Below are positions 3,103 through 23,620 of a DNA stretch of 23,620 nucleotides, piece by piece; positions within the stretch are counted from its first letter, which is position 1, and every line of letters begins with the position of its first letter. The DNA is from a virus. The notes under the pieces were generated by a model. It was not told the DNA's origin and did no database searches. It saw only the letters and a list, made by a program, of their open reading frames with translations. The position numbers were made by a program, and so were the translations under genes. The DNA is taken from positions 1-23,620 of the IMG/VR virus record IMGVR_UViG_3300017768_000087; one strand, written 5' to 3'.

Positions 3103-4203
3103 TTACGAAATTTCTGAGTTCACCAATACCCCATTTGCATAGAAGTTATTGTTCTTAGTTTTTATCGTGTAAGTCCAGTGTTTTTTAGGAAAACCTTCAA
3201 GTCTGTGTACATTTGCATAGTATTTTCCATCTAATATTTTTAGTAAATCATTTGGTTGTATTTCAGTTGCATCTAAATCATAATTAGATTTACTTAATCC
3301 TGGGTCTTGAGAAACCATATTTCCATCTTGTTTGTAAATAGGGTGGTCTGATGTTAGAATCAATTCTTTCAATTCTTCACCATCCGTTTCATCGTTAGGG
3401 TCTGATAATATTATCTTGTATAGATTTTCGTGTAGTCTTTTTTCTATTTGTTGTATTTCTACTTCTTCTTCTTGACCGGTTGACCAATTATAAGACATAA
3501 TCATATCTCCAACATTTAAGTCGTGTATAATTGCAGTTCCGTCTTTTAAATTAACCGGAATGTGTTCATAAATACACAATCCACCACCACCACCAGAAAA
3601 TGTAATATTACCAGTCACAGTAGCAGATACACCATTGTTTGTTAGTGTTAATGTGTAGGCTCCTGTTCCGTCTTTATTGGAGGGTGAGTGTGCCCATTGA
3701 GTTCTAATGTATCGTGTTCCTGAATTATGACTACTAAATAATGAATTACTATTTGCTGTAGAAGTACTGATAAATCCTGTTCCACTATTTGATGTTCCGA
3801 GTACACCTGGGTCACCACCACTTGAGATAGCTAATGTAAATGTTCCGAATGGACCACCAGTAGTAGATACTGAACAACTTGTTCCACCAGTACCACCGGT
3901 CACAGTCATCTGTGCGTCTTTAATACTCTGTTCAGTACCACCTGGTAAACCAGTTATATTTACTCCAGTATTATCTACAACACTCCAAGATGTAGATGCT
4001 AAATCGTGGTCATAAGAATAAAATTCTGACATTGCGTGCGGAGCCGAACCATCCGGTCTATCTGCTGAATCGTTTGCAGTATTGATGGTTGCGTAAGTTC
4101 CGTCTGATTGGTCTTCCAACGAAGTATTTGCCGTTGTTGAAGTCCTACCAAGTTCTGTATTGATTTCACTCATCTTGATTTGACCTGATGAAGTCAATGA
4201 CAT
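3103..4203 (-). CDS. Phage structural protein with C-terminal Hint autoprocessing domain
   Basis: This 366-residue protein has three parts. Residues 1-70 (SGQIKMSEINTELG, then SAPHAMSEFYSYD) resemble the short N-terminal segment common in T4-like phage structural proteins. Residues about 71-203 are Ser/Thr/Gly-rich and probably a beta domain. After a run of five glycines (204-208), residues 210-366 look like a Hint domain, the self-cleaving fold of inteins and hedgehog proteins. Cys210 is the likely nucleophile, followed by the L-x-x-G-D-x-x-x-S-Y-N element and the T-S-D-H-P-I-Y box (Thr284, His287). The end, FYANGVLVN, matches the last intein block, but the usual His before Asn362 is absent and only four residues follow. 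Splicing is therefore unlikely; N-terminal thioester cleavage is plausible. The AGGAGAAACCAATG start is clear. Confidence 0.85.
   Translation of the reverse strand: MSLTSSGQIKMSEINTELGRTSTTANTSLEDQSDGTYATINTANDSADRPDGSAPHAMSEFYSYDHDLASTSWSVVDNTGVNITGLPGGTEQSIKDAQMTVTGGTGGTSCSVSTTGGPFGTFTLAISSGGDPGVLGTSNSGTGFISTSTANSNSLFSSHNSGTRYIRTQWAHSPSNKDGTGAYTLTLTNNGVSATVTGNITFSGGGGGLCIYEHIPVNLKDGTAIIHDLNVGDMIMSYNWSTGQEEEVEIQQIEKRLHENLYKIILSDPNDETDGEELKELILTSDHPIYKQDGNMVSQDPGLSKSNYDLDATEIQPNDLLKILDGKYYANVHRLEGFPKKHWTYTIKTKNNNFYANGVLVNSEIS
3106..3576 (-). other. Hint (hedgehog/intein-type) domain within the 366-aa protein
   Basis: The domain runs from Cys210 to the C-terminus. Its blocks are in the expected order: N-terminal Cys with P-V-x-L-x-D-G; I-x-x-L-x-V-G-D; the TSDHPIY box; a second N-D-L-L-K element at 318-322; and the terminal F-Y-A-N-G-V-L-V-N. 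The length of 157 residues suits a Hint fold without a homing endonuclease. The missing penultimate His argues against complete intein splicing. Confidence 0.8.
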
Positions 4204-4252: not shown

Positions 4253-4500
4253 TATGCGTCGTTACTACCACTAATGGTTGTAATTGATGCTAAAGCTGTC
4301 ACTAATTCAGAATGTGATGCTGAAGCTTGTGTTACCATAGCTGTGTAGTTGATTTTTGCTTCGTGTACTGAAATAGATTCTTGATAATCTAAGATGGTTC
4401 TTTCATTACCATCGATATCATTTTGTGCTCTTGTATGTTTAATACTTACTTGAGCAAATCCACTTCCTGACACTGTTGCGTCTGCTACTATTCTACCCAT
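4252..4500 (-). CDS. Hypothetical 82-aa protein coupled to the giant fibre gene
   Basis: I do not recognise this 82-residue protein. It has no membrane segment or signal peptide. Residues 1-35 look like beta strands, and the middle to C-terminal part (about 40-75, with S-V-H-E-A-K-I-N-Y and H-S-E-L-V-T-A-L) could be helical. Its ATG overlaps the end of the giant fibre gene by 8 bases, and a strong GAGGAG site lies inside that upstream gene, so the two are translationally linked. Position suggests a fibre-associated protein or fibre chaperone, but nothing in the sequence proves this. Confidence 0.7.
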   Translation of the reverse strand: MGRIVADATVSGSGFAQVSIKHTRAQNDIDGNERTILDYQESISVHEAKINYTAMVTQASASHSELVTALASITTISGSNDA

Positions 4501-7500
4501 TTGATTTCTCCTCTAATTTGGTTAATCGTTGTTGCTGTTCTTCTATTGTTTTTTGTTGTTCTTTGTTTTGTTTTGTCAATTCTTTAACCGACTCAACTAA
4601 CAATGGAACTAATTTTTCGTATTGTACTGTTAAATAATCTTCACCAGATATAGAACCACTTGCATCTGTATCAAATGGAGCCAATTTAACTGCCTCTGGT
4701 TGAACTTTTTTAACTTCTTGTGCAGAAACACCAACATAATTTTGTTCGGTGTCGTAGTCTGCTAATTCTTTTGCAGTATTGTTAAAATTGTAAGTAAATC
4801 CAGATAGTTGACTTACTTTTTCTAATGGACTTTCAATCAATTTAATATTTCTTTTTAGTCGTTCATCAGACGCAAAAGCCGTAATATCATTTGAAGCGGC
4901 TATCTGACCACTTACATCTAATGCATAAGTTGCTCCTGGAGCTGTGCCGTCAGATATTCCATATCCTACTCTTACACTATGTGCTACATTTAATTTACCC
5001 TCAGTATTTAATGACATAGCTCCCTGTCCAGAACTATGACTGGTCTTTCTCCATAAAAAACCTCTATTTGTTTCATCACTAAAAGTAAATGTCATAGCCC
5101 AAGAATCAACAGCTCCAAAACCAGTTGAAGAAATCATACCTATACAATAAGCACCTGATGTTGAATATAGTCTATATTTAGTATAGCTTGATTCGTTGTG
5201 TGCTCTAAAGCTATGTCCAGAAGTTAAAGTAATATTTCCACCAACACTAACATTTCCTGATGAATCTATTCTCATTCTTTCTACATTGTTTGACTTAAAG
5301 AATAAATCATTTGTCGCACAAAACATTCCATTGTAATAATCTCCACCCGTATTACTATCCTTTACTGCAATACCACTACCTGCGTCTGTTGATGCTACAA
5401 CTAATCCTATATCAGTTGAACCAATAAATCTTCCTTGTCCAGCAGCATCTACTCCAAATACCTTAGAACCACCGAGGTAAAAGTCATAAGTTCCAGCACC
5501 TCTACCAATAGAAAATCTCATCAAACCAGTACCACTATTATCATAATATGCTATTTTAGCATTTTCATAAGTATTACTACCGGGTGTATTTGTACCACCC
5601 ATAAAATTAATACCAGGAGCATAATCACTACCTCCGTGGTCTATGTACATTTCTCCAGTAAAGTTAGAAGTACCATCTACATCAAGTCTTGTACTTGCAA
5701 AAGTATTACCTGTACCAAGATGTAACCCTGTACCATTTATTGAACCAAAGTATGTACCACCAGTTGCACTTCTAAATCTATGTCCTCCCGCATCGTGGTA
5801 ATTATTTCTATCTCCACCATCTCCAAGATAAAGACAAACAGCACCATCATTATTTAATAGTTTTGTATATGTACTATCTTTTGCTAATACTGTTTTGAAT
5901 CCGTGTGTTCCATCCCAAATTTGAATACCACCATTACCTGCTTGGACTGCACTTGAAACATATAATACTCCTGAACCATTCATTGTAAATCTTGTTGAAC
6001 CACCAGTTGCAAATCCTATTGTATCTTCTGCAGTTCTTAACATACCAGTATTTGTATCTGATACAAAACTATAACTTGGGGTTCCTGCACTTCCAACAAC
6101 ATTGTTTCTTATACCATAACTACCAAACCTTGCTCTTTCTACCGAATCTCCAATAACCTTAGTTTCTGATGCTTCTACTACAATTCTGTCATCATCATTC
6201 AGTCCTCTAGCTAATGTAGCATTAACATCATAAATACTTCTGTAATATCCTGTTTGAGATGCGTAATCACCTGGTGTTTCAGTCACATCATACTGAGTCA
6301 TATTTGCTATGTACCAAGTAAATGCTGTATCACTACCACCCGTAACATAAATAAAACCAGAAGTACTAAATGTACCACTATCTCCAGCATGACATACTCT
6401 TGCATACCATTCCCATTTACCAGTACCTTCCGGTGAAGTTAAGAAATGGTCCGTAGAATTATTTCCCATTGAATTAGCTGCTGTAACAAATGTTCTACCA
6501 CTTGGAAGTTTAGCTTGGAATATCTGTACAAATGTATGATTTTCCTCAGTATTTATAAGTTGATAAACACCACCAAAACCTGGACTTGTACTTCCGTTAC
6601 CATTATATGCAACTTTTATTACTTTACCACTTGAATTTGGAGGAACTATACTATCGTCTGATGCTGTAATTCTTGAAACGACAAGATTAGTACCACCTGC
6701 ATTATTGTATAAAGTTACACTATTAGTACCATTATTAAAGTCTTCATCTAAATATCTTTGTTTACCACTATTTCTAAGTCCTGCTATAATTGCGTGAAAT
6801 CCACCTCTATCAGTAGAATTACTTGGAGTGTCGTATATTCTTCTATCATCTATGTAGTAACCTGAACTATTTAATGAATTGATTCCAGATGAATTTATTT
6901 CAGCACGAACTACTCCTCCTGTTGATAAACCTATTTTATCCCCAGTAATAAGATACATACCAGTATTGGTATCGTTAGAAAAACTATATGTTGGTGTTCC
7001 AACACTTCCATTTGGTGCTCTAAAAACACCAGCTCCAGTAATACCTTGAGTTGCTCCATCTACAAAGAAACCACTATCTGCTCTTATATATCTTGGTGTA
7101 TAAATATTTTTAGCAGTAGACTGATTTATTCTTAGCCAACTAGTATCATTAGCTCCAATATCTCCTACCGTAGTACCGTTATATTGAATATATAATCTTT
7201 CTCCAGTATCTGAAAAATTCATAGTGACTTGTTCAGTAAATGTTTTTTGACCAGTAAATGTTTGTGTTCCTGATAAATGTGCTGTGTCTGCGTCTAAGTA
7301 AGCACTTGCAATAACACTTCCGTTCCAAGTACCAGTAGTGATAGTTCCTAATGAAATTATGTTTGTTGAATTACCAGCGTGGAATACTCTGTACTTATTA
7401 CCATTACCATAACTCCAACCACCAACAGCTAAATCATTGATAGCGCCGTCTATTCCGAAATATCCAGCAAAATCGCCATTAATATGAAATGTCATAAACG

Positions 7501-10500
7501 CATCTGCACCACCTGTATCTTGATATACTTGTAGTCCAGATTGATTTCCAGAACTTGTTTCAATATTATCGTTAGAAGTAAATGTAGTAATATTACTTAG
7601 AGTATTTGATGATAAGCTTCCTTTTGTTACAACCGAATTACCATTAGAAGTAACATCACCAGTTACAGTTAAAATTCCTGTAACATCAGCTCCAGCAGTG
7701 TCCGCTCTAAATCTTTCAGTATCATTAACAATTATTCTTGAATAATCAGCTGTAATATCTATTCTATCAGAACTACTATCGTGTGCTCTTCTTAAACTTA
7801 AGTCTTCATCATAAGCACTTACAATACCACTATCTACTGTAATTTGTTTATTGAAATAAAATTTATCTCTATCGGTTTGTATATGTCCCCAACTTGAATT
7901 ACCTGGTCCTAATTCTATGTACCCACTTGCAGTTGTAAATCTATGATAATTGTTTGGGGAATAATAATGAGCTCTGGAACTATCTGAATGTAATCTTAAA
8001 TAATCAGAAGTATCTCCAGCTTCGTATATGAAGAAATATTTGTCGTGAGTAAGTTGTGCAGCCTGTTCCGCTGTACCTGACCTTGATGTCCAAAACTCTA
8101 AATTACCAGCTCTACCAGATTCACTTCCATTTAATAAATGGGTCTCAAGTCTTGCTACTTGTGTAGTTCCAGCCTGACTATGTCCAAATATTAATTGTGC
8201 TCCACTTCCTGCACTTGTAGCTGTGTTTCTAATTTCTAATGTAGGATTACTGGATTGACCAGTTAATAAGTTTCCTGTTATGTTTGTGTCTTTAGCTATT
8301 TCAACCGTAGAAGCACTACCATCTAATGTCAAGTACGTAGCAACTCCACCACTTCCGTCATCTGTTTTAAATATAATATCAGAATCATCTGCTCTATTTT
8401 GGAATATTAAATGTCCAGTATAATTATCGGCTCCGAAGCTATTTGTTCCATTGTGATAGATTTGTAAATCAGAACTAGCACCATACATACTTTTAATACT
8501 ATCAGCAAACCTCATATTTTTTGCTACATCAATCAATGTTGAAGCACCATTTAATGTTAGGTAAGCAGTAGTTCCACCTGAACCATTATCACATCTTAAT
8601 GCTAAATTTCCATCATCTGTTAGTTGGTCAATATACAATCCACCGGTTTGATTTCTAATAAAAGAATCACTTCCGTCGTGATACATATATAAATCTTCAC
8701 CAGCACCTAATGCAAGTGTATCATTATCATTTGGTATTCTTACTCCTGAATTTTCAGTAATTCTAAATTGTGCGGTTCCACTTGAACTACCTACCGTTCC
8801 ACCACTTCTAAATTCTAAATTACCACCAGAACCATACATTGTAAATGTTGTATCGTCTTGTTTAAACATCAATCTTGCAGAAGTGTTGCTATCGGAAGTT
8901 TGTTGATTTAATAATATACCATTAACACCACTTGAAAAAATATCTAATGTTGTATCGGGTGATGTTGTGCCAACACCTAATTTATTTGTAATCCAAGAAT
9001 CACCATTTCCTCTTAATCTAATTCTTTCACTATAAGTTGCATCAGATGAAGGATTTAGTGCCTCGTAAATAGATAAACGAGATTCTCCTGCACTACTATA
9101 TAATGCTGCAACTGGAACTGCTCCACCTTGACCACCTCTCGCCCAAGTGTTTTGGAATCCCCATCTTGTTCCGTAGATTTCTAAATGGTCTCCAGAGGTT
9201 AATCCTGATGTTCCACCGGAAGTATCATCAAATGTACTTATTTTATATAATGGTGTTGTTGGGGTGTTTGCAAGTTGTCCTAATCCCAATACATATCCTT
9301 CTGAATCCACACCTCTTATGTGAGCACTACCACTAACCACATCTAATTTTTCTTGTGGTGATGTGGTGCCAATTCCCACTTTTTGAGCAGTACTAATAGT
9401 TATCGCATTAGTATTGTTTGTATTTAAATAAATTGGTTGAGATACTGCAGTAAGTATATTTAATGGACCACCATTACTTCTAACATAGTTATTATTATTA
9501 GATGATAAATGAAATAGTCTCAATCCATTAGTTAAATCATTACCGACATATAAAACTTTGTCATCATTTAGAATGGTATCTTGATGAAGTATAGTGTTGG
9601 TTGCACTTCCATCTAATGTTATGTAAGGTGTTATTCCACCACTACCATCGTCTGTTTCTAATGTTATATCTGCATCATCAAGAGTATTTCTAATCTGTAA
9701 AGTTCCAGTATAATTATCTATTCTACTATTAGTTCCATTGTGCCTAATTCTTAAATCACTACCTGTTCCAAATCTTGCGTCTACATCATCATTAAATCTC
9801 ATTAGTTTTTGAACTGTTGTAAATCCAGCACTACCATCTAAAGTTATGTAAGCAGCTGTTCCACCACTTCCGTCATCTGATTTTAGAATAATATCTTTGT
9901 CATCAGCAGTATTTTCAATTTCCATATCACCCGTGATGTTAACGAATTTAGCAGCTGTAGAACTATGATATAAAAGTATATTTCCTGATGCTCCAACTTT
10001 TAATGCCTGATTCCAATTAGGTAAGTGTACATTACCGATTTCACTTGAATCTATTTTAAGGGCAGTTTTAGTAACACCACCATCATTTACCCTAATAAAG
10101 AAATCTGAATCTTGGCCAAGTGCATCAATATATAATGCACCAGTTCCATTCACTAAAGAGGAATTAGTTCCATCGTGTTTCATATACATATCAAGACTAT
10201 TACCAGCACCTAATAATATATTATCTCCTACTCTTACATAGTCTGTTCCACCCTCAACCATAGTTAGCATCTGTTGTCCACCAACTACAAAGTCTAATGT
10301 ATCTGCTGCTTGTTCATAGATATAAGTATGAGTACCACCATCTAAGTAAAGTTTATTAGTAGCACTGATTTCTACATCACCTACAACACTTTGAGAACCT
10401 GTTATTTGAACTGAACCTGTAAATTGATGTGTGTCGTCTATGGAATCACCGAATATTGTTGAACCACTTGAAAAACTTTGTGTCATATAAGTTATTGATG

Positions 10501-13500
10501 AACTTACGATATAATTTTGTGCTGTTAAATCTCCTTCAACAACTAAATTTCCTTGAATTTCTGTTCTTGTTGGTGGTGTTAATAATAGGTCTCCAGTGCT
10601 TCCGTCTAATGTTATGTAAGGAGTAACTCCACCAGAACCATCGTCACTTCTAAGTATCAAATCAGAATCATCGGCTTGTTGGTCTATGTAAAAAGGAGCT
10701 ACTGCATTTTGTTGTATATAAAAAGCTCCAGTATAATTTTTAAATTGTGAATTACTTCCATTGTGAAGTAATCTTATATCACCACTTGCTCCAAGAGTGA
10801 ATTCTATGGAATCACTCGGAATACTTACAAATTTTTGACCACCATCTAATGTTAGGTAAGCAGTAACTCCACCAGAACCATCATCACATTTTAGAATTAA
10901 ATCTCCATCATCTGTTTGTTGTTCAATAGATAAATTACCAGTTCCATTTCTAATAGTTGCATTAGAACCATCGTGCAAAATATCCATATCAGCACCAGTT
11001 CCTATTTGCAATTGAACACTATCGTGTAATCTAAAATTTTTGAATGTTCTGATTAAATTTTCATCACCTTTGAATTTCATATAGTCGGTAACACCACCAC
11101 TACCATCATCTGTTTGAATAATTATTTGTTTATCGTCTGTTGTGTTGCGAATGTATAAATGTCCAGTTCCTACTTGGTCTATGTAAGAATGTGAACCATT
11201 GTGGTATATTTGTAAATCTGCACTATCACCAAAGTTTGCTGTAACACTATCAAGATGTTTAGTGTCTATATGAAATTTTGTTAGTGAAGCACTACCATCT
11301 AAGGTTAGGTAAGCAGTTGTACCACCAGAGCCATCATCTGATTTTAAAACTATATCTCCATCATCGGTATTATTTGTAATGTTTAAAGTTCCAGTATAAT
11401 TATCAATAAATGAATTTGTTCCATTATGAGTAAATTGTAAGTCAGAACCTGCACCTATTTTTAATGGGTGTGAATCTACTGGTATTTCTACACCATTTCC
11501 TGCTTCAGTTAATTTTAATTGAACTTCTCCACCAACAACAATTTCTAATATGTCATCTGCTTGTTCGTGGATATAAGTATGACCACCACCATCTAAATAA
11601 AGTTTCTTGGTAGCTGTAAGTTTTACATCTTGTTCTATATTTACTGATGTAGCACTACCATCTAATGTTATGTAAGGAGTACTTCCACCACTACCATTAT
11701 CACTTCTAAGTGAAATATCTTTATCATCAGCAAAATTCTGAATAATAAAATCTCCAGTATGATTATTTAGATAAGTGTCTGTTCCGTTGTGAACAATTCT
11801 AAAGTCATTAGATGCTCCCACATAAAAGTTTTGGTTGTCATTAGGTAAAACAAGACTACCAGAATTACTTGCATCTATTTGAATAGCAGTAATCTGACCC
11901 CCACCAGCGTTTACGGAAAAAATTATATCTTGGTCAGATGACAAGTTTCTAAGTTGCATACCTGCTGCAGCATTTTGGTCTATGGTAAAATAGTTGTTAC
12001 TGTTTGAAATATAAGAAACTGAACCATTGTTATATAAGTTTAAGTCGTAACCTGCACCAATAGTTAATTTTTGATTGTCATTTGGTAATATTACTCTACC
12101 TACATTACTTGAATCTATTTGTAATGCAGTAATCGTTGAACCACCATCATTAACCAATATACTAAAATCTTGGTCGGTAGTATTGTTTCTTAAAAAATTA
12201 TTAGAGCCATCGTGATAGAATTGTAAATCACTACTTGCTCCTAACAAAAGCTTTTGTCCGTCATTAGGTAAAACAATATTTGCAACCTCACTTGAATCAA
12301 TAATAAGTGCATTGATAGTAGAACCACCATCGTTTACTGTAAAATAAACATCTGCATCGCTTTTTGTATTTTGTATATAATTATGAGAACCATTATGATT
12401 TATTACAAAAGCATCACTTGCACCCATAATTACAGCACTATTATTAGGAAGTCTTAAATGACTTCCATCAAAAGTAAGATTAGATTCTACATCAATGTTA
12501 TCGGTTCCACCATAAGTTAGTAGTCCGTTTGCAGTAGAACCATCCATTGTGATATCACTACTTCCACCACCAGAACCACCGGCTGCTAACGATGCTGAAG
12601 TAAATACTCCACCACCTACAACGATTCTTTCAAAAGAACCTGTTCCACTACCACTAATGTCTCCTTCTACGGTTAATTCACTTGTTGGTGTTGTTGTGCC
12701 GATTCCGACATTTCCTGATGAGTCTATTCTCATAGCTTCAGAAGTGTTGGTTGTAAATCTCATAGAGTTGTCAGAATTATTATATTCTAAAATACCAGCA
12801 TCTTGGTCATCAATATCTCCAAATTCTATTTTTGAAGCATTGTTAGTTGGTGTTACCATAGTTAATCTAACAGTAGTATTATTCTCAATTAATAGTTGTG
12901 AATTACTTGCAGTAAATGTTCCAGCAGAAGCGTTCTTAACATGCAACTTAGCTTCAGGACTCGTTTCTCCTATCCCGACGAAATGATTATCTCCAGTTAT
13001 ATTTAAAACATAAGCTTTAGTACCACTACTATCTTCAGTAGCAAATTGCATTTTACTTCCGTGAGATAAACTGTCAAAGAAGAAATGACCAGTTATATTT
13101 TCTATAAAACTATTAGAACCATTGTGTCTCATTCTTAAATCGTCACCAGCACCAACCATTAGATATTGATTGTCATAAGGCAAACGAACAGCTTTATCTG
13201 CAGCTCGTAATCGTAGTGCTGATTGTACACTTCCACCATCATTAACTTGAAAAGCCATATCTTGGTCTTGAGCAGAGTTCATTAAAATCAGCTGACCAGT
13301 GACATTTTTTATAATACTATTTCCACTTTGATGATATAACTCTAAATCATTACTTGCACCAATAGATAGTTTTTGATTATCATTTGCTAATTTAACTCTT
13401 GCGTTGTCACTTGCATCTATTCTGATAGCATTAATAGTACTACCACCATCATTAACTTGTAAAAATATATCTTCGTCTTGTGATGTGTTTTTTATTATGG

Positions 13501-13891
13501 TAGAACCTGCTCCCGCATTTTGTATAGTAAGTGCACCATTGAAATTTACAATATTGGAAGTATCATTTGTATGATAAAATCTTAAGTCTTGACCTGCACC
13601 AATAGTTAATTGTTGGTCATCATTAGGTAGTTTAACTCTACCAATTTCACTTGAATCTATTTGAATAGCAGTAGTAGTAACACCACCATCATTAACTCTA
13701 AGTTTAAAATCTTGGTCAGAAGTTGCTAAATCTATATAATTAGATGTACCGTCGTGATAAATCTGTAAATCATTACCAGCTCCTAGCATTAATTTTTTAC
13801 TATCTTGCGAGATTATAATATCACTGGATGCAGTGACTGCGTTAAGATGAGCGTTTGAACCGCTCGATATGAGTTTTTTCCAACTTGGCAT
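4493..13891 (-). CDS. Giant repetitive tail fibre with C-terminal S74 chaperone domain
   Basis: At 3132 residues this is far longer than the T4 long-fibre proteins (gp34 is 1289). The N-terminus MPSWKKLISSGSNAHLN matches the start of the 440-aa protein and may be a shared attachment segment. Next comes an array of about 17 units of roughly 60-80 residues, pattern GAGxDLxxYHxGSxSxIxN then D(D/N)GSGG or VNDGG, arranged in four blocks. Between and after them are G-I-G-T-T-S-P segments typical of trimeric beta-rich fibres. Residues about 2345-2555 look different, perhaps a jelly-roll. Residues 3008-3132 form an S74 intramolecular chaperone with SDERLK, the VGVSAQEV segment and a terminal coiled coil. 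The AAGGAGA site supports the start. The frame is uninterrupted. It is likely trimeric and concerned with adsorption; the receptor is unknown. Confidence 0.92.
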   Translation of the reverse strand: MPSWKKLISSGSNAHLNAVTASSDIIISQDSKKLMLGAGNDLQIYHDGTSNYIDLATSDQDFKLRVNDGGVTTTAIQIDSSEIGRVKLPNDDQQLTIGAGQDLRFYHTNDTSNIVNFNGALTIQNAGAGSTIIKNTSQDEDIFLQVNDGGSTINAIRIDASDNARVKLANDNQKLSIGASNDLELYHQSGNSIIKNVTGQLILMNSAQDQDMAFQVNDGGSVQSALRLRAADKAVRLPYDNQYLMVGAGDDLRMRHNGSNSFIENITGHFFFDSLSHGSKMQFATEDSSGTKAYVLNITGDNHFVGIGETSPEAKLHVKNASAGTFTASNSQLLIENNTTVRLTMVTPTNNASKIEFGDIDDQDAGILEYNNSDNSMRFTTNTSEAMRIDSSGNVGIGTTTPTSELTVEGDISGSGTGSFERIVVGGGVFTSASLAAGGSGGGSSDITMDGSTANGLLTYGGTDNIDVESNLTFDGSHLRLPNNSAVIMGASDAFVINHNGSHNYIQNTKSDADVYFTVNDGGSTINALIIDSSEVANIVLPNDGQKLLLGASSDLQFYHDGSNNFLRNNTTDQDFSILVNDGGSTITALQIDSSNVGRVILPNDNQKLTIGAGYDLNLYNNGSVSYISNSNNYFTIDQNAAAGMQLRNLSSDQDIIFSVNAGGGQITAIQIDASNSGSLVLPNDNQNFYVGASNDFRIVHNGTDTYLNNHTGDFIIQNFADDKDISLRSDNGSGGSTPYITLDGSATSVNIEQDVKLTATKKLYLDGGGHTYIHEQADDILEIVVGGEVQLKLTEAGNGVEIPVDSHPLKIGAGSDLQFTHNGTNSFIDNYTGTLNITNNTDDGDIVLKSDDGSGGTTAYLTLDGSASLTKFHIDTKHLDSVTANFGDSADLQIYHNGSHSYIDQVGTGHLYIRNTTDDKQIIIQTDDGSGGVTDYMKFKGDENLIRTFKNFRLHDSVQLQIGTGADMDILHDGSNATIRNGTGNLSIEQQTDDGDLILKCDDGSGGVTAYLTLDGGQKFVSIPSDSIEFTLGASGDIRLLHNGSNSQFKNYTGAFYIQQNAVAPFYIDQQADDSDLILRSDDGSGGVTPYITLDGSTGDLLLTPPTRTEIQGNLVVEGDLTAQNYIVSSSITYMTQSFSSGSTIFGDSIDDTHQFTGSVQITGSQSVVGDVEISATNKLYLDGGTHTYIYEQAADTLDFVVGGQQMLTMVEGGTDYVRVGDNILLGAGNSLDMYMKHDGTNSSLVNGTGALYIDALGQDSDFFIRVNDGGVTKTALKIDSSEIGNVHLPNWNQALKVGASGNILLYHSSTAAKFVNITGDMEIENTADDKDIILKSDDGSGGTAAYITLDGSAGFTTVQKLMRFNDDVDARFGTGSDLRIRHNGTNSRIDNYTGTLQIRNTLDDADITLETDDGSGGITPYITLDGSATNTILHQDTILNDDKVLYVGNDLTNGLRLFHLSSNNNNYVRSNGGPLNILTAVSQPIYLNTNNTNAITISTAQKVGIGTTSPQEKLDVVSGSAHIRGVDSEGYVLGLGQLANTPTTPLYKISTFDDTSGGTSGLTSGDHLEIYGTRWGFQNTWARGGQGGAVPVAALYSSAGESRLSIYEALNPSSDATYSERIRLRGNGDSWITNKLGVGTTSPDTTLDIFSSGVNGILLNQQTSDSNTSARLMFKQDDTTFTMYGSGGNLEFRSGGTVGSSSGTAQFRITENSGVRIPNDNDTLALGAGEDLYMYHDGSDSFIRNQTGGLYIDQLTDDGNLALRCDNGSGGTTAYLTLNGASTLIDVAKNMRFADSIKSMYGASSDLQIYHNGTNSFGADNYTGHLIFQNRADDSDIIFKTDDGSGGVATYLTLDGSASTVEIAKDTNITGNLLTGQSSNPTLEIRNTATSAGSGAQLIFGHSQAGTTQVARLETHLLNGSESGRAGNLEFWTSRSGTAEQAAQLTHDKYFFIYEAGDTSDYLRLHSDSSRAHYYSPNNYHRFTTASGYIELGPGNSSWGHIQTDRDKFYFNKQITVDSGIVSAYDEDLSLRRAHDSSSDRIDITADYSRIIVNDTERFRADTAGADVTGILTVTGDVTSNGNSVVTKGSLSSNTLSNITTFTSNDNIETSSGNQSGLQVYQDTGGADAFMTFHINGDFAGYFGIDGAINDLAVGGWSYGNGNKYRVFHAGNSTNIISLGTITTGTWNGSVIASAYLDADTAHLSGTQTFTGQKTFTEQVTMNFSDTGERLYIQYNGTTVGDIGANDTSWLRINQSTAKNIYTPRYIRADSGFFVDGATQGITGAGVFRAPNGSVGTPTYSFSNDTNTGMYLITGDKIGLSTGGVVRAEINSSGINSLNSSGYYIDDRRIYDTPSNSTDRGGFHAIIAGLRNSGKQRYLDEDFNNGTNSVTLYNNAGGTNLVVSRITASDDSIVPPNSSGKVIKVAYNGNGSTSPGFGGVYQLINTEENHTFVQIFQAKLPSGRTFVTAANSMGNNSTDHFLTSPEGTGKWEWYARVCHAGDSGTFSTSGFIYVTGGSDTAFTWYIANMTQYDVTETPGDYASQTGYYRSIYDVNATLARGLNDDDRIVVEASETKVIGDSVERARFGSYGIRNNVVGSAGTPSYSFVSDTNTGMLRTAEDTIGFATGGSTRFTMNGSGVLYVSSAVQAGNGGIQIWDGTHGFKTVLAKDSTYTKLLNNDGAVCLYLGDGGDRNNYHDAGGHRFRSATGGTYFGSINGTGLHLGTGNTFASTRLDVDGTSNFTGEMYIDHGGSDYAPGINFMGGTNTPGSNTYENAKIAYYDNSGTGLMRFSIGRGAGTYDFYLGGSKVFGVDAAGQGRFIGSTDIGLVVASTDAGSGIAVKDSNTGGDYYNGMFCATNDLFFKSNNVERMRIDSSGNVSVGGNITLTSGHSFRAHNESSYTKYRLYSTSGAYCIGMISSTGFGAVDSWAMTFTFSDETNRGFLWRKTSHSSGQGAMSLNTEGKLNVAHSVRVGYGISDGTAPGATYALDVSGQIAASNDITAFASDERLKRNIKLIESPLEKVSQLSGFTYNFNNTAKELADYDTEQNYVGVSAQEVKKVQPEAVKLAPFDTDASGSISGEDYLTVQYEKLVPLLVESVKELTKQNKEQQKTIEEQQQRLTKLEEKSNG
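4496..4870 (-). other. S74 self-cleaving chaperone domain of the giant fibre
   Basis: Residues 3008-3132 start with Ser-Asp-Glu-Arg-Leu-Lys. In this family (endosialidase and T5 L-shaped tail fibre type) cleavage occurs just before this Ser, using a Ser-Lys pair, here Ser3008 and Lys3013. The domain continues through G-V-S-A-Q-E-V and Y-E-K-L-V-P-L-L-V-E-S to a Gln/Glu/Lys-rich coiled coil. It is probably released after trimer folding. Confidence 0.88.
6220..6860 (-). other. Non-repetitive, possibly jelly-roll receptor-binding region of the giant fibre
   Basis: This segment lacks the fibre repeat patterns. It contains aromatic-rich strands such as GKWEWYARVCHAG and FVQIFQAKLPSGRTF, and an opening YLDEDFNNGTNS that resembles carbohydrate-binding-like sandwich folds in other fibres. 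The assignment to a fold is by pattern only. Confidence 0.4.
8285..8735 (-). repeat. Fibre repeat block 4 (two units)
   Basis: Two coding units with GAGEDLYMYHDG and GASSDLQIYHNG, each followed by a D(D/N)GSGG strand and TYLTLDG-type end. Their equivalent bases are about 240 apart. Confidence 0.8.
9450..10360 (-). repeat. Fibre repeat block 3 (three units plus variants)
   Basis: The block begins with the variant KLYLDGGTHTYIYEQ. Three GA(G/S) or GTGSDL units follow, one ending in VNDGG and two in DDGSGG. A diverged unit (YVGNDLTNGLRLFH) closes it. Confidence 0.75.
10580..12465 (-). repeat. Fibre repeat block 2 (about eight units)
   Basis: This is the longest array. It begins with VNDGG-type units and switches to D(D/N)GSGG-type units, with a KLYLDGGGHTYIHEQ variant between. 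Nucleotide similarity is still high: 10605-10647 and 10845-10887 differ at only three of 43 bases, 240 bases apart. Confidence 0.82.
13000..13795 (-). repeat. Fibre repeat block 1 (four units)
   Basis: Four units directly follow the N-terminal segment: GAGNDLQIYHDG, GAGQDLRFYHTN, GASNDLELYHQS and GAGDDLRMRHNG. Three have the VNDGG-A-(I/L)-x-(I/L) second half; the fourth diverges into a G-I-G-E-T-S-P segment. Confidence 0.8.
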
Positions 13892-16829: not shown

Positions 16830-18530
16830 CTATGAATCAAATTTACCAATTGCTAATATCTCGTCATCACTTTCTAAATCATAACCAATAGAGTCTGTGT
16901 TTACCTTTAATAAAAATGTACCACCATCTGATTGCTGAATAGATACTGCGTCGTGTTCCATATATTGTCCATTGATAAAGAATACAAAATCATTTTCACT
17001 TGTTGATGTTAAATCACCTGGAGCAGAAGCTGTCACTGCACTAAAACTTGCGGTATTCGTACTGATAATAGTATTTGATTTTTTGTAAAAATTCTTTCTT
17101 AAATAGTCTGTTTCGTTTGTTGATACCCCACTAATACTAAAATTAGCTAATGCGTACTCCGTAACTAAATTAGTTTGACTGGCGTCAGTTAATGCAGGGT
17201 CATTTGAAATTCCATTTACTTCATATCCATTCAAACTGAATGAACCCGTGATATCAACTGAACCAGTAAACTCGTGACTATCATCTAAGGTATCACCAAA
17301 TTCATTTGAACCTTGTGAAAAGTCTATTGATTGAGTAGTTATTTCAGTTATGAATACTTGTGAAACTAAACTACCAGTAACGGTTAAATCTCCAACTACC
17401 GTCATACTACCGGTTATTGCGGTAGACCCTGTTATTTCTATTGTTCCGTCTGATGAACTAATACTTCCATCTGCAATTACAGTAGTTCCTGTTCCTATTT
17501 GAACTGAGTTTGCAGTTAATGTGTTGAATTGAACATTGTCAGATGTTCCGACTGATTGTCCAATTGAAAATTCTTGTGTTAGATTGTCAGAACCATCAAA
17601 AGAAAATCCATTGTTAGATAAGGTTACACCAGTTCCTTGTTCAAACAACAATCCATTTGAAATGTTGATTGAAAATATATCTTTTGTTTCTTCACCAAAT
17701 TCTGCTGCATTAGAACTCAATCCTACTCTTTTACCAGTATCGTCTACTAATGTTGTATCTGTACTTTCTCTAACAATCAATTTTTTAGGTGATAAGTATT
17801 TTTGAGTAGTGTTATAGTTGTTATATGACTCTGGTAAAATATAACCATTTAAAGTCATTGTAAAGTTTGTCTTGATTAATCTTTCACCCTCAACTTCAGT
17901 AGCGTTTGAAAAACTATCAATTGAAGTTCTGAATTTCATTTTACCAGGCTCACCCCAATAAGAACCATCAGAGTAATTTACTTTTTCAACGATACGATTC
18001 ATTTGTTCAATGTAAGATGTCCAAATGATAAACTCATATGTTAAAGTTACATAATCTGGTATTGCAACATTATAGTACTCTCTACCTGGTATTAGGTTTT
18101 GTTGAACTGAAAATTTATCAAAACGATTTTGTTGTGAATATTTTTTCTGAAAAGAATAAAATAATTTTGGGTCATTAGCATCTAATTTATCTACGGAAAA
18201 ATTATCATTACGACTCATACTTGTTCTTTTGAAAGCAATCAACGGAACAATAATTTGTCTTTTTTTGTCTCGTAAATATCCTTGTTTAGAAACTTGGGTC
18301 CATCTTTCTGGTGAAGCATAAATACAAGGAACTTTAACTTTTTCCTCATTTACTTCTACATCGGGTTTAATTACTTCGTTGAAGTAATACATAACTGCTG
18401 AATCCATATCCATAATACCTACGGATAAATTCTTTACATCGTCTTTAACACCCGCTGGATTACGACTAATCTTTTCTCCACGATTGAATATTTTTCTCTG
18501 ACTTCTTGGTATTGGTTTACTTCTTGCCAT
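16830..18530 (-). CDS. gp15-like tail completion protein fused to a fibre-like module
   Basis: Residues 1-262 are a second copy of the tail completion/sheath stabiliser protein. They align without gaps with the neighbouring 267-aa protein; by hand count about 175 of 260 positions are identical, including SKQGYLRDKKRQIIVPLI (81-98) and YWGEPGKMKF (191-200). Residues about 290-566 are a fibre-like module paralogous to the 288-aa protein, with FSIGQSVGTS (321-330), EFGDTLDDSHEFTGSVDITG (410-429), SFSAVTASAP (495-504) and the closing EILAIGKFDS. The gap after the first gp15 copy is 4 bases and I see no Shine-Dalgarno, so translation probably depends on the upstream gene. T4 gp15 is 272 residues and lacks such an extension. 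I infer a gp15 subunit that carries a fibre attachment arm. Confidence 0.88.
   Translation of the reverse strand: MARSKPIPRSQRKIFNRGEKISRNPAGVKDDVKNLSVGIMDMDSAVMYYFNEVIKPDVEVNEEKVKVPCIYASPERWTQVSKQGYLRDKKRQIIVPLIAFKRTSMSRNDNFSVDKLDANDPKLFYSFQKKYSQQNRFDKFSVQQNLIPGREYYNVAIPDYVTLTYEFIIWTSYIEQMNRIVEKVNYSDGSYWGEPGKMKFRTSIDSFSNATEVEGERLIKTNFTMTLNGYILPESYNNYNTTQKYLSPKKLIVRESTDTTLVDDTGKRVGLSSNAAEFGEETKDIFSINISNGLLFEQGTGVTLSNNGFSFDGSDNLTQEFSIGQSVGTSDNVQFNTLTANSVQIGTGTTVIADGSISSSDGTIEITGSTAITGSMTVVGDLTVTGSLVSQVFITEITTQSIDFSQGSNEFGDTLDDSHEFTGSVDITGSFSLNGYEVNGISNDPALTDASQTNLVTEYALANFSISGVSTNETDYLRKNFYKKSNTIISTNTASFSAVTASAPGDLTSTSENDFVFFINGQYMEHDAVSIQQSDGGTFLLKVNTDSIGYDLESDDEILAIGKFDS
16833..17663 (-). 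other. Fibre-like C-terminal module fused to gp15 copy
   Basis: Residues about 290-566 of the fusion. The module is absent from the neighbouring gp15 copy and present as a separate gene immediately downstream (288 aa). The junction is a short linker at about 262-290 (V-D-D-T-G-K to D-I-F-S-I-N-I). Confidence 0.85.
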
Positions 18531-18534
18531 AATA

Positions 18535-19338
18535 TTATTTATTAATTATATCCTCTAACTTTTTATCAGTTTGTTCCCTGATAATAATTTTTTTTGGTGT
18601 GTAATACTTTTGTGTTGTAGTTTTATTGTTAAAGTGTTCTGGTAATATATAACCATTTAACACAACACTAAATTTTGTTTTAATAATTTTTTCATTATCT
18701 AATTCAGTAGAATCTTCAAAAGTATTAATTTCACTTTTAAATTTCATCTTACCTGGTTCACCCCAGTATGCTCCGTCTGAATAGTTAATCATTTCTATAA
18801 TTTTATTCATTTGGTCAATGTAAGAAGTCCATATTGTAAATTCATATGTAAGTTTAACATAATCTGGCATAACAACATTATAAAACTCTTTTCCTGGTTT
18901 AGTTCCTTGTAAAATATCAAACTTATCAAATCTATTGTGATTTGTATTTTTTCTTTCAAAAGAGTAAAACAAATTAGGATTATTTGCATCTAACTTGTCA
19001 ATAGACATATTTGTATTTTTTTCCATAGATGTTCTTTGAAAAACAATCAAAGGAACTATAATCTGTCTTTTTTTATCTCTTAGATATCCTTGTTTAGATA
19101 TTTGATTCCATTTTTCATTTGAACCATAAATACACGGGACATCAACTACTTCTTCATTTACTTCTACTTTTGGTTTAATCACATTATTGAAATAGTACAT
19201 AATAGCACTATCCATATCCATTAAACCAATGGATAAATTTTTTACATCATCTTTTACTGCAGGTGAATTACGACTTATTTTTTCTGCACGATTAAAAGAT
19301 AATTTTTCGTTTCTTGGAACCGGTTTACCTCTTACCAT
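18535..19338 (-). CDS. Tail completion and sheath stabiliser protein (T4 gp15-like)
   Basis: In T4-like phages gp15 forms a hexameric ring that caps the finished tail, binds the last sheath ring and joins tail to neck. This 267-residue protein is near the T4 length (272) and sits directly after the gp13- and gp14-like genes, as in T4. It shows the family layout: an early V-P-C-I-Y segment (67-71), R-Q-I-I-V-P-L-I (91-98), K-L-T-Y-E-F-T-I-W-T-S-Y-I-D-Q-M (162-177) and L-N-G-Y-I-L-P (227-233), the counterpart of T4's VNGWMYPP. The ATG overlaps the upstream stop (TAATG) behind an AGAGG site. Because it lacks a fusion, this is likely the standard ring subunit, with the next gene encoding a specialised paralogue. 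Confidence 0.85.
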   Translation of the reverse strand: MVRGKPVPRNEKLSFNRAEKISRNSPAVKDDVKNLSIGLMDMDSAIMYYFNNVIKPKVEVNEEVVDVPCIYGSNEKWNQISKQGYLRDKKRQIIVPLIVFQRTSMEKNTNMSIDKLDANNPNLFYSFERKNTNHNRFDKFDILQGTKPGKEFYNVVMPDYVKLTYEFTIWTSYIDQMNKIIEMINYSDGAYWGEPGKMKFKSEINTFEDSTELDNEKIIKTKFSVVLNGYILPEHFNNKTTTQKYYTPKKIIIREQTDKKLEDIINK

Positions 19339-21028: not shown

Positions 21029-23620
21029 TTATAATTTATTCTTTAAGTCTTTAATTTCTTTTTGTTGTTCTTCAACGGTAGTTTTTAATTCTTTGATTGA
21101 TTCTACTAAATAAGGTATTATTTCTTCATACCTTAATACTTTATAATCTTTTTCATCGTCTGAGTGTAATGGGAGTTCTCTTTCGTCTACTAAGTGTGGT
21201 AATACTTTTTCTACTTCTTGTGCTTTAAATCCTGCACTTAATCTATCTCCACCCTTTTTCCAATTAAATGTTTGACCATCTAATTTGCTTATAATATCTA
21301 ATCCATTATCAATCTTTGTAAAATTCTTTTTTAATCTTATATCCGATGGTACCGATGAAAACGCAACTACATCTGCCTTTACATGCATATCTCCATCATT
21401 TTCAATTCTAACTTTTTCATCATTACCTACACTTATTATTATATTAGTAGTGGCTACATTATTAATATACATTTGCCCACCATTACTTTGGAAATGTCCA
21501 TTACCATCGTGTCGTATAAATACTTCATTATTATCCCCAGCTGCTAAATAAGCATTATCAGGAACTGCTAAATAAGTAGTAGTTAATTGCATTCTTCTTG
21601 AATTACCACAATAAAATTCCATTACATTAGCACTTGATTCTTTTATAAAGGTATCATTACCACCATCTAAGAATAGTTTTTGTGTAGGTTGTACATAAAG
21701 TCCACCGCTTTCAATACCAACATTAGCACTATTGTCAGTATAAAATCTTGCTCTACCACTACTCTCTACACTAATTTGCAATCTTGTGGAAGCATCATAT
21801 TGTATACTTGCTTGGTGCGTGCCTGTGTCATTTACTGTAAATTTATTTTGTGGATTTGACAAACCAATTCCAACATCTCCACCACCCTCTATAATAAATA
21901 AAGCATTGCTTCCTTGTGCTACTGAACTATCGTGTGAGGCAACTGATGTTTTTCTACATACTGCCCAAGCATCATTTGCATATAAAGTTCCACTAAAATA
22001 TTCTATATCACTTGCCGCATCGTGATTAAATACACCGGTTCCTCTATAACTTGCATCATCATCACTTCCTTGAAATACAATTTGACCTGATGTATAACCA
22101 TTACCCGCACCATCTATAAAAAGAGTGGTATTACCTGTTGAGGAAATTTTTGTACTTCCATCATTAACATGCAATTTATACCCAGGTGTTGTAGTGCCTA
22201 TTCCGACAAATCCAGTATCATCAATAGTCATTTGATTTGATAATGTTCCTGATGTATTAGAAGTTAAAAATCTTAATTGACTTGCAGAATCGTTATGTGA
22301 GTTTGCAAAGTGTCTAATAGCAGCATACCCAGTATTATTTGTTGTATTTGCAAATAATAAAGTTTGATAATTAGATAAATGCCCACCACCGACTGTGTGC
22401 ATATCAGCACTAATGGTTAAATTATTAGCACTTGCACTACCTTTAATGTCAAGCTTACCTCCGGGCGAATTGGTTCCTATTCCGACATTTTGGGAACTAT
22501 CTATTCTCATTGCTTCAGCATTACCTGAATACCACACGTGACCACTTGTACTTGAAGCAGCACCATAAAGCATAAATCCACCAGCATAGGCATTATCTTT
22601 TGGACCAATGTAAACATTATTATTAGAATGTATTCCAAGTAACCCTATATCATCTCCATCAGCATCTTCGCCCATAAAGAATGTATTATTAGAAATCATT
22701 ACATTTCCAGCTACGTGAAGCTTTTGTGCGGGTGATGTGGTGCCGACTCCGACATTTCCAGTTGAAGTACCTGCTAAAATTTTATTTGCAGTTCCATTAC
22801 CTCTAAAATCAAAAGTTAATCTATCGGCACTATTATTAGCATCTTGAACATAAAATCTTGTTTGACCCCAAGTTCCACTATTAACAAATTCCCATACACC
22901 ACTTGTTCCACCTGAACCACCATTAAAGGTTACATCATTATAAAGTCCATCTGTATGGAATAATTTACCATCAGTTCCACTTCCTATTTGTAAAGTAGCA
23001 TCAGGTGATGTATCAAGTAATCCTACCCTGTTAGTAGAAACATCTACATAAAAAGTACCTGAATCTATATTTACATCTCCAGCACTATATGATAAAGTAT
23101 CTACATCTCTTGTCCATTGATAATCAGAACCCCAACCATGCAATGTTCCATCATCAGCTGCCATATCCCAAAGTTCTACAAAATATAAAATATTATATGT
23201 AGATGAATGATTATGATATGCTTTTAAATTACTACCATCTACTATTGCAAGTGGATGATTAGAACTACTACCATTTCTTGATACAAGGTGTAAATCCCAA
23301 GCTCCACCATCTTGGTCATAAGTTAAAATATATACTGCTCCAGTGTCAGTACCAGTTCCTGTTGTATTTAAAGTAATTTTGTATTGATAATTAACGTGTA
23401 AAGTTGTTCCTAATTCTGTACTTAAAGTTATGGCTTGTCCATTTCCACTACCAGCTCCAGCTACACTCACAGTACCTCTATTATATTTTCTACCAGCAAA
23501 TTCTATACTACCATCTACGTGTAGCAATTCTCCAATAGAGCTAGTTCCAATACCTACTCTATCAGTACTTGCATCAGTATATAATAAAGTATCATCGTTT
23601 TGTCCTTTAACAATAAAGTC
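21029..23620 (-). CDS. Tail fibre with S74 chaperone domain (5' end outside window)
   Basis: The reading frame is open to the right edge, so the gene is partial; 863 residues are visible. A TTG at 23525-23527 is not a credible start, because the codons before it continue the fibre pattern (D-R-V-G-I-G-T-S-S). The protein is built of G-I-G-T-x-(S/T)-P segments alternating with beta-rich stretches, typical of trimeric fibres, and has one KLFLDGGNDTFIKE unit related to the giant fibre's variants. Its last 105 residues are an S74 domain: SDIRLKKN, then G-F-K-A-Q-E-V, R-Y-E-E-I-I-P-Y-L-V-E-S and a terminal coiled coil. It lies just before gp13, where T4 carries gene 12 and wac (whisker fibritin). 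It is therefore a fibre of the tail or neck; receptor and location are not shown. Confidence 0.9.
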   Translation of the reverse strand, partial: DFIVKGQNDDTLLYTDASTDRVGIGTSSIGELLHVDGSIEFAGRKYNRGTVSVAGAGSGNGQAITLSTELGTTLHVNYQYKITLNTTGTGTDTGAVYILTYDQDGGAWDLHLVSRNGSSSNHPLAIVDGSNLKAYHNHSSTYNILYFVELWDMAADDGTLHGWGSDYQWTRDVDTLSYSAGDVNIDSGTFYVDVSTNRVGLLDTSPDATLQIGSGTDGKLFHTDGLYNDVTFNGGSGGTSGVWEFVNSGTWGQTRFYVQDANNSADRLTFDFRGNGTANKILAGTSTGNVGVGTTSPAQKLHVAGNVMISNNTFFMGEDADGDDIGLLGIHSNNNVYIGPKDNAYAGGFMLYGAASSTSGHVWYSGNAEAMRIDSSQNVGIGTNSPGGKLDIKGSASANNLTISADMHTVGGGHLSNYQTLLFANTTNNTGYAAIRHFANSHNDSASQLRFLTSNTSGTLSNQMTIDDTGFVGIGTTTPGYKLHVNDGSTKISSTGNTTLFIDGAGNGYTSGQIVFQGSDDDASYRGTGVFNHDAASDIEYFSGTLYANDAWAVCRKTSVASHDSSVAQGSNALFIIEGGGDVGIGLSNPQNKFTVNDTGTHQASIQYDASTRLQISVESSGRARFYTDNSANVGIESGGLYVQPTQKLFLDGGNDTFIKESSANVMEFYCGNSRRMQLTTTYLAVPDNAYLAAGDNNEVFIRHDGNGHFQSNGGQMYINNVATTNIIISVGNDEKVRIENDGDMHVKADVVAFSSVPSDIRLKKNFTKIDNGLDIISKLDGQTFNWKKGGDRLSAGFKAQEVEKVLPHLVDERELPLHSDDEKDYKVLRYEEIIPYLVESIKELKTTVEEQQKEIKDLKNKL
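21032..21346 (-). other. S74 self-cleaving chaperone domain of the partial fibre
   Basis: Cleavage is expected just before the Ser encoded at 21344-21346 (Ser-Asp-Ile-Arg-Leu-Lys); the Lys five residues later completes the Ser-Lys pair. The domain is recognisably the same family as the giant fibre's, but differs clearly in sequence and lacks the D-T-D-A-S-G insert seen there. Confidence 0.88.

Follow-up and report, generated by a model that had tools for sequence, protein, structure and literature searches.

A probable minimal Hint autoprocessing domain without splicing residues at the C-terminus of a phage tail-fibre-cassette protein

The 366-residue protein encoded on the minus strand at positions 3103-4203 of IMG/VR virus record IMGVR_UViG_3300017768_000087 (positions 1 to 23,620 of which, the whole stretch of DNA analysed, are referred to here as the window) probably ends in a minimal Hint autoprocessing domain that lacks the residues needed for splicing and is fused C-terminally to a protein of the phage tail-fibre cassette, a reading to which we give a probability of roughly 0.7. 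Judging from its sequence, the domain is most likely to resemble B-type bacterial intein-like (BIL) domains and the Hog domain of hedgehog proteins, and to release a tail-fibre-associated protein or to transfer it by way of a thioester. The most familiar Hint domains of phages are inteins lodged in enzymes such as terminases, polymerases and reductases. The occurrence of Hint domains in many phage proteins, including those of uncultured Caudovirales, is already known, as is BIL/Hog-type processing; a phage structural Hint domain of the splicing-dead thioester type, as a conserved and exchangeable end of a fibre-cassette protein, was not found in the open-access literature searched.

The domain comprises the last 157 residues of the protein:

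3106..3576, minus strand: Hint domain, residues 210-366 (fold model, Foldseek matches in the PDB, profile search, and ratio of nonsynonymous to synonymous substitution rates, dN/dS)

Searched as a single sequence against Pfam, NCBIfam and PHROGs, the window protein gave nothing above the cut-offs. A family profile built from 18 diverse Hint parts and searched against solved structures in the PDB matched the NrdJ-1 intein best (E = 2.3e-9), followed by Tetrahymena BIL2 (about 2e-7), the KlbA intein (6e-5), gp41-1 (3e-4) and a bacterial BIL domain (4e-3). An AlphaFold2 model of residues 206-366 reached a mean predicted local distance difference test score (pLDDT) of 91.5 and a predicted template-modelling score (pTM) of 0.87, and the top 50 fold matches retrieved from the PDB by Foldseek were all Hint, intein, BIL, Hog or Vint domains, with BIL2 first and hedgehog (1at0) among them. 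The fold, the block A nucleophile, the Thr and His of block B and the profile similarity are all those of the Hint superfamily. The first-pass annotation, made from the letters alone, had proposed a Hint domain here, and both the profile search and the predicted fold bear it out; since the family profile matches solved Hint domains and the predicted fold is that of Hint, the features seen in the reading frame are more than chance. As a separate observation, 17 of the 18 members of the Hint alignment (A3) matched the Pfam ataxin-1 AXH domain (best E = 1.5e-8), about as well as they matched PT-HINT, and the family profile also matched ataxin-1 chains (E = 0.012), so that a relationship between Hint and AXH is possible.

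The catalytic positions were assessed in an alignment of 49 distinct Hint domains, the most distant of them about 41% identical to the window copy, with the register of block F taken from the HMMER alignment to the NrdJ-1 intein:

3574..3576, minus strand: Cys210, the block A nucleophile (49 of 49)
3340..3354, minus strand: TSDHP, block B, residues 284-288, including Thr284 and His287 (T, D, H and P each 49 of 49)
3136..3174, minus strand: block F, TYTIKTKNNNFYA, with Thr346 for the usual Asp and Asn352 for the usual His (49-row alignment)
3115..3120, minus strand: block G, with Asn362 in the penultimate-His slot and Ser363 in the terminal-Asn slot (49-row alignment)

Cys210, Thr284, Asp286, His287 and Pro288 are invariant, as is His258, and they include the residues called Cys1, Thr B:7 and His B:10 in work on inteins (PMC4031507). 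Position 4 of block F, usually Asp, is Thr346 in every row, and residue 352, in the block F His slot, is Asn, Asp, Lys, Ser or Glu and never His. The penultimate-His slot, position 362, holds His in 44 rows, Ser in three and Asn in two; the Asn is confined to the window and contig L002, and its presence in both makes an assembly slip in a single record unlikely. The terminal-Asn slot, position 363, is Ser throughout, no member having a cyclising Asn, and it is followed by an equally invariant Glu364 and, within a few residues, by the stop codon (the window copy ends three residues past Ser363, and every relative seen stops shortly beyond that position), leaving neither a +1 Cys, Ser or Thr nor a C-extein. 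The features named in the first-pass annotation (GGGGG at 204-208, C210, TSDHP at 284-288 and ANGVLVN at 356-362) are all present, and only four residues follow ANGVLVN, in keeping with its statement that no C-terminal extein exists. It had further described a terminal Asn lacking the preceding His; the His is indeed absent from the window copy, but this description is shifted by one, because Asn362 aligns with the His slot and Ser363 with the Asn slot, and Asn362 is therefore not the cyclising residue. Its wider proposal, that thioester formation is retained while splicing is impossible, agrees with the invariance of Cys210, Thr284 and His287 and the loss of the set required for Asn cyclisation.

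Class 1 inteins have a terminal Asn or Gln for cyclisation and a +1 Cys, Ser or Thr with a C-extein, neither of which is found here. The phage domain shares Cys1, the TxxH of block B and the fold with NrdJ-1 (PDB entry 8ubs) and gp41-1 (6riz and 6qaz), but differs from them in the absence of the terminal Asn, the block F residues and the +1 nucleophile, which makes splicing impossible. The C-terminal His-Asn of A-type BIL domains is replaced by Asn-Ser in the window and by His-Ser across the family, while of the B-type BIL motifs blocks A and B are present, the C-terminal Asn is gone and the Asp and His of block F are gone as well. Splicing in cis or in trans was rejected in view of the missing Asn and +1 residue. 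Split inteins do occur in phages, and the domain might be conceived as one half of a trans-splicing system with its partner elsewhere; yet the domain runs without a gap from block A to block G, it has neither the terminal Asn nor a +1 nucleophile, and none of the 34 contigs searched gave more than a single Hint match, so that this explanation is the least credible of those weighed.

The remainder of the protein is divided as follows:

4006..4203, minus strand: N-terminal module, residues 1-66 (MSLTSSGQIKMSEIN...EFYSYDH), common to Hint-bearing and Hint-less relatives
3595..4005, minus strand: central beta domain, residues 67-203, the most variable part, with strands in the AlphaFold model
3577..3594, minus strand: GGGGG linker (204-208) and Leu209, the predicted -1 residue, with the junction pattern of Hint-bearing relatives

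The relatives belong to uncultured marine viruses. Close ones were found in 21 viral contigs, and searches with the N-terminal part and with the Hint part each added many more; for the N-terminal module, 266 stretches of viral contigs encode relatives. The N-terminal module of relatives is 58-92% identical to the window copy (alignment A4), and of 94 distinct complete proteins carrying it, 55 possess the Hint domain and 39 do not. From these alignments, the family reads as a modular protein in which a 66-residue N-terminal module precedes a variable beta domain and a linker, with the Hint domain as an optional C-terminal addition. The central domain was modelled with pLDDT values mostly of about 57-88, and the sialidase and adhesin folds retrieved by Foldseek with the full-length model had low template-modelling (TM) scores and were not used to name it.

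The junction of Hint-bearing relatives consists of Phe or Leu followed by Cys, with Gly at position -2 in 14 of 16 clusters. The C-termini of Hint-less relatives include GGGFP, GGGFAP, GGGGGLQP and CRLSGL, a G-[FL] end pattern occurs in 6 of 20 Hint-less clusters against a background of 3%, and several of these proteins end near the point where cleavage would leave their Hint-bearing counterparts. Exteins with and without Hint are as much as 80-82% identical, and at least four changes of Hint state are needed on the tree of front parts; the domain has evidently been gained or lost repeatedly at one boundary. On contig L068 (positions 5386-5451), a short Hint tail (DTILTKNNNFYAGGVLVHSEIGE) that ends like the Hint-bearing genes lies just past the stop of a Hint-less family gene, the fossil of a replacement or deletion. 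An unrelated N-terminal domain (MAGPAVGTSNVG...; contigs L148-L152, with the genes at about 5650-6444 in L148, L149, L150 and L152) also carries the same Hint domain, which again follows a Gly run and terminates the protein. Searches among sequenced phages and GTDB genome contigs returned no convincing relative, so neither a host nor a cultured relative was found; the L149 protein had only weak matches to Ruminococcus phages (E = 0.05).

Within the clade of the window, the Hint domain has a median dN/dS of 0.09, against 0.15 in the N-terminal module and 0.28 in the central domain; the values are rough, dS being near saturation for many pairs. By this measure purifying selection on the Hint part is strong, and the reading frames are open in all of the roughly 55 Hint-bearing copies. 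The lost splicing residues, the sporadic presence of the domain and the one true fossil, in L068, might suggest a functionless, decaying intein remnant. A decaying element does not fit the low dN/dS of the Hint part, however, and the open frames, the identical pattern of loss in all copies and the lack of a C-extein for splicing also speak against it; rejected on selection and open frames, a remnant is very improbable.

Hedgehog proteins transfer their front domain to cholesterol. Like the phage domain, their Hog/Hint domain (1at0; fold match with E = 9e-6 and TM scores of 0.64-0.70) is a C-terminal processing domain without a C-extein, from which the phage domain differs in having no sterol-recognition region, low sequence similarity and no known acceptor. 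Only the first acyl shift is used by hedgehog (PMC7664689), and N-terminal cleavage is expected of B-type BIL domains, defined as possessing all intein splicing motifs but the C-terminal one (PMC7765530). The phage domain lacks the C-terminal motif, as the latter do, and has blocks A and B, but the Asp and His of block F are lost in addition; it is carried by a phage fibre-cassette protein and not by a bacterial protein, and its activity is predicted. The kept thioester residues, the loss of residues that release the C-terminal side and the lack of a C-extein point to N-terminal cleavage or transfer. The outcome proposed in the first-pass annotation, self-release or attachment of the N-terminal domain to another molecule as in hedgehog proteins, is plausible. 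Cys210, aided by Thr284 and His287, would attack the Leu209-Cys210 peptide bond to form a thioester, which would then be resolved by water, a thiol or an amine. The 209-residue front part (21.1 kDa, ending in GGGGGL) of the 39.1-kDa protein would thereby part from the 157-residue Hint domain (18.1 kDa), and once freed would resemble the Hint-less relatives. Self-release by hydrolysis or thiolysis would be the simplest outcome, with transfer to an amine as the alternative.

Several points weigh against this proposal. In inteins, the Asp at position 4 of block F contributes to the N-terminal reaction as well (PMC4031507); with Thr in its place here, the first step might run slowly or rely on different catalysis. 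The penultimate His is missing from the window copy too, the model gives no role to the invariant Ser363-Glu364 or to His258, and the placement of the protein in the virion is read from gene order alone. An equivalence of His258 to the catalytic Asp of hedgehog, which had no residue-level structural alignment behind it, was considered and dropped.

The closest fold match is BIL2 of Tetrahymena thermophila BUBL1 (6tmm and 6y75; E = 1e-10, TM scores of 0.78-0.83), for which the profile match is also strong (2e-7). BIL2 has been reported to conjugate its front domain, ubl4, to substrate lysines through an isopeptide bond rather than only to splice (PMC8616854). Since such conjugation is reported for the nearest fold, covalent transfer is a live, if clearly less probable, rival: the Cys210 thioester would join the front domain, through its C-terminus, to a lysine or other nucleophile of a fibre subunit, a neighbouring copy or a host surface molecule. 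The flexible Gly run at the end of the front part would suit such a reaction, and Ser363, Glu364 and His258 are invariant despite having no role in simple release. On the other hand, BIL2 is located between two ubiquitin-like domains and retains its C-terminal Asn (the solved form being C1A-N143A), whereas the phage-encoded Hint domain is C-terminal and has Ser in that slot; in addition, an acceptor was not identified, a sterol-recognition region is absent after the Hint domain, and Hint-less relatives exist. Somewhat more doubtful still is the specific idea that a widespread group of marine viruses builds its tail-fibre-associated protein with an ATP-free conjugating domain, the Hint thioester attaching the Gly-rich C-terminal end of that protein to a fibre subunit or a host surface molecule. 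It is unlikely that the domain remains uncleaved as a stable C-terminal binding or folding domain without chemistry, as the loss of the block F Asp and His and of the terminal Asn and the many relatives without Hint might suggest, because a domain with a structural role alone would have no need of Cys210, Thr284 and His287 in all 49 copies, nor of the conserved G-[FL]-C junction. Release or thioester transfer by a B-type-BIL/Hog-like domain is the preferred reading.

The gene and its principal neighbour are:

3103..4203, minus strand: whole gene, 366 residues and stop (open reading frame list and translation, ribosome-binding site, about 94 distinct complete relatives)
4493..13891, minus strand: upstream fibre gene with an S74 chaperone domain at its end (PF13884, E = 2.4e-13)

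A ribosome-binding site, AGGAG, lies immediately 5' of the ATG, and the gene is flanked by that of the 3,132-residue S74 fibre and by a tail sheath gene, with one small open reading frame on each side. Of 34 related contigs, 32 encode an S74 domain on the same strand 102-1100 bp upstream (median 130 bp), and in the remaining two the gene sits at the contig end; in L149 and L150, the gene combining Hint with the unrelated N-terminal domain likewise directly follows an S74 fibre gene. The position directly downstream of a distal fibre gene, found in these 32 of 34 contigs, is that of T2-type gp38, a second protein at the distal fibre tip that binds the fibre through its N-terminal part (PMC12892980). 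The analogy is drawn from gene position and not from sequence or fold, and gp38 has no Hint domain; the cassette protein is perhaps a fibre-tip protein. Where the first-pass annotation had placed the Hint domain at the end of a structural protein, the C-terminal position on a tail-fibre-cassette protein stands, while a structural role is one that we infer from gene position and family distribution.

Among the 34 related contigs, the sheath gene was seen only in the near twin of the window, which is weak evidence for its absence because most of these contigs are fragments; the fibre cassette seems to cross virion types. The window sheath shares 48% identity with its counterpart in Microcystis phage Mel-JY01 and 38% with the one in Flavobacterium phage immuto, and the annotations of these two phages list no Hint gene adjoining the sheath gene.

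As also stated in the first-pass annotation, the window encodes two S74 fibres (PF13884, E = 2e-15 and 2e-13), the second, at 21029-23620, being cut off by the contig end. The 3,132-residue fibre contains many repeats of the type 'LPNDNQKLTIGAGNDLQIYHDGSNSYI ... DDGSGGVTPYLTLDGS'. The adjacent products of 16830-18530 and 18535-19338 have a similar N-terminal part (RSKPIPR/RGKPVPR..., VPCIY...YLRDKKRQIIVPLI), to which a fibre-like tail is added in the former but not in the latter, which has a weak PHROG match to a tail sheath stabilizer; the pair looks like the result of tail-gene duplication and fusion. In five related contigs (L004, L005, L009, L012 and L020), two conserved small genes directly follow the Hint gene, the first encoding a short protein that starts MEVGKDTKFTLSIET or MEIGKDSKF... 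and the other a thioredoxin-like protein whose N-terminus is hydrophobic (VVQVNAAWN...KVVPTII).

In this family, a Hint domain that has lost splicing but retains its thioester residues forms a conserved and exchangeable end of a protein encoded beside the tail fibre, across a diverse set of uncultured viruses. Should it prove active, a virus structural protein would finish itself by thioester chemistry, in a second self-processing step alongside that of the S74 chaperone and possibly as a route to covalent joints in the virion, and Hint domains with cleavage restricted to the N-terminus would be available from nature. Should the conjugation reading be true, the product would be a covalent joint in the virion or a covalent link between virus and host cell.
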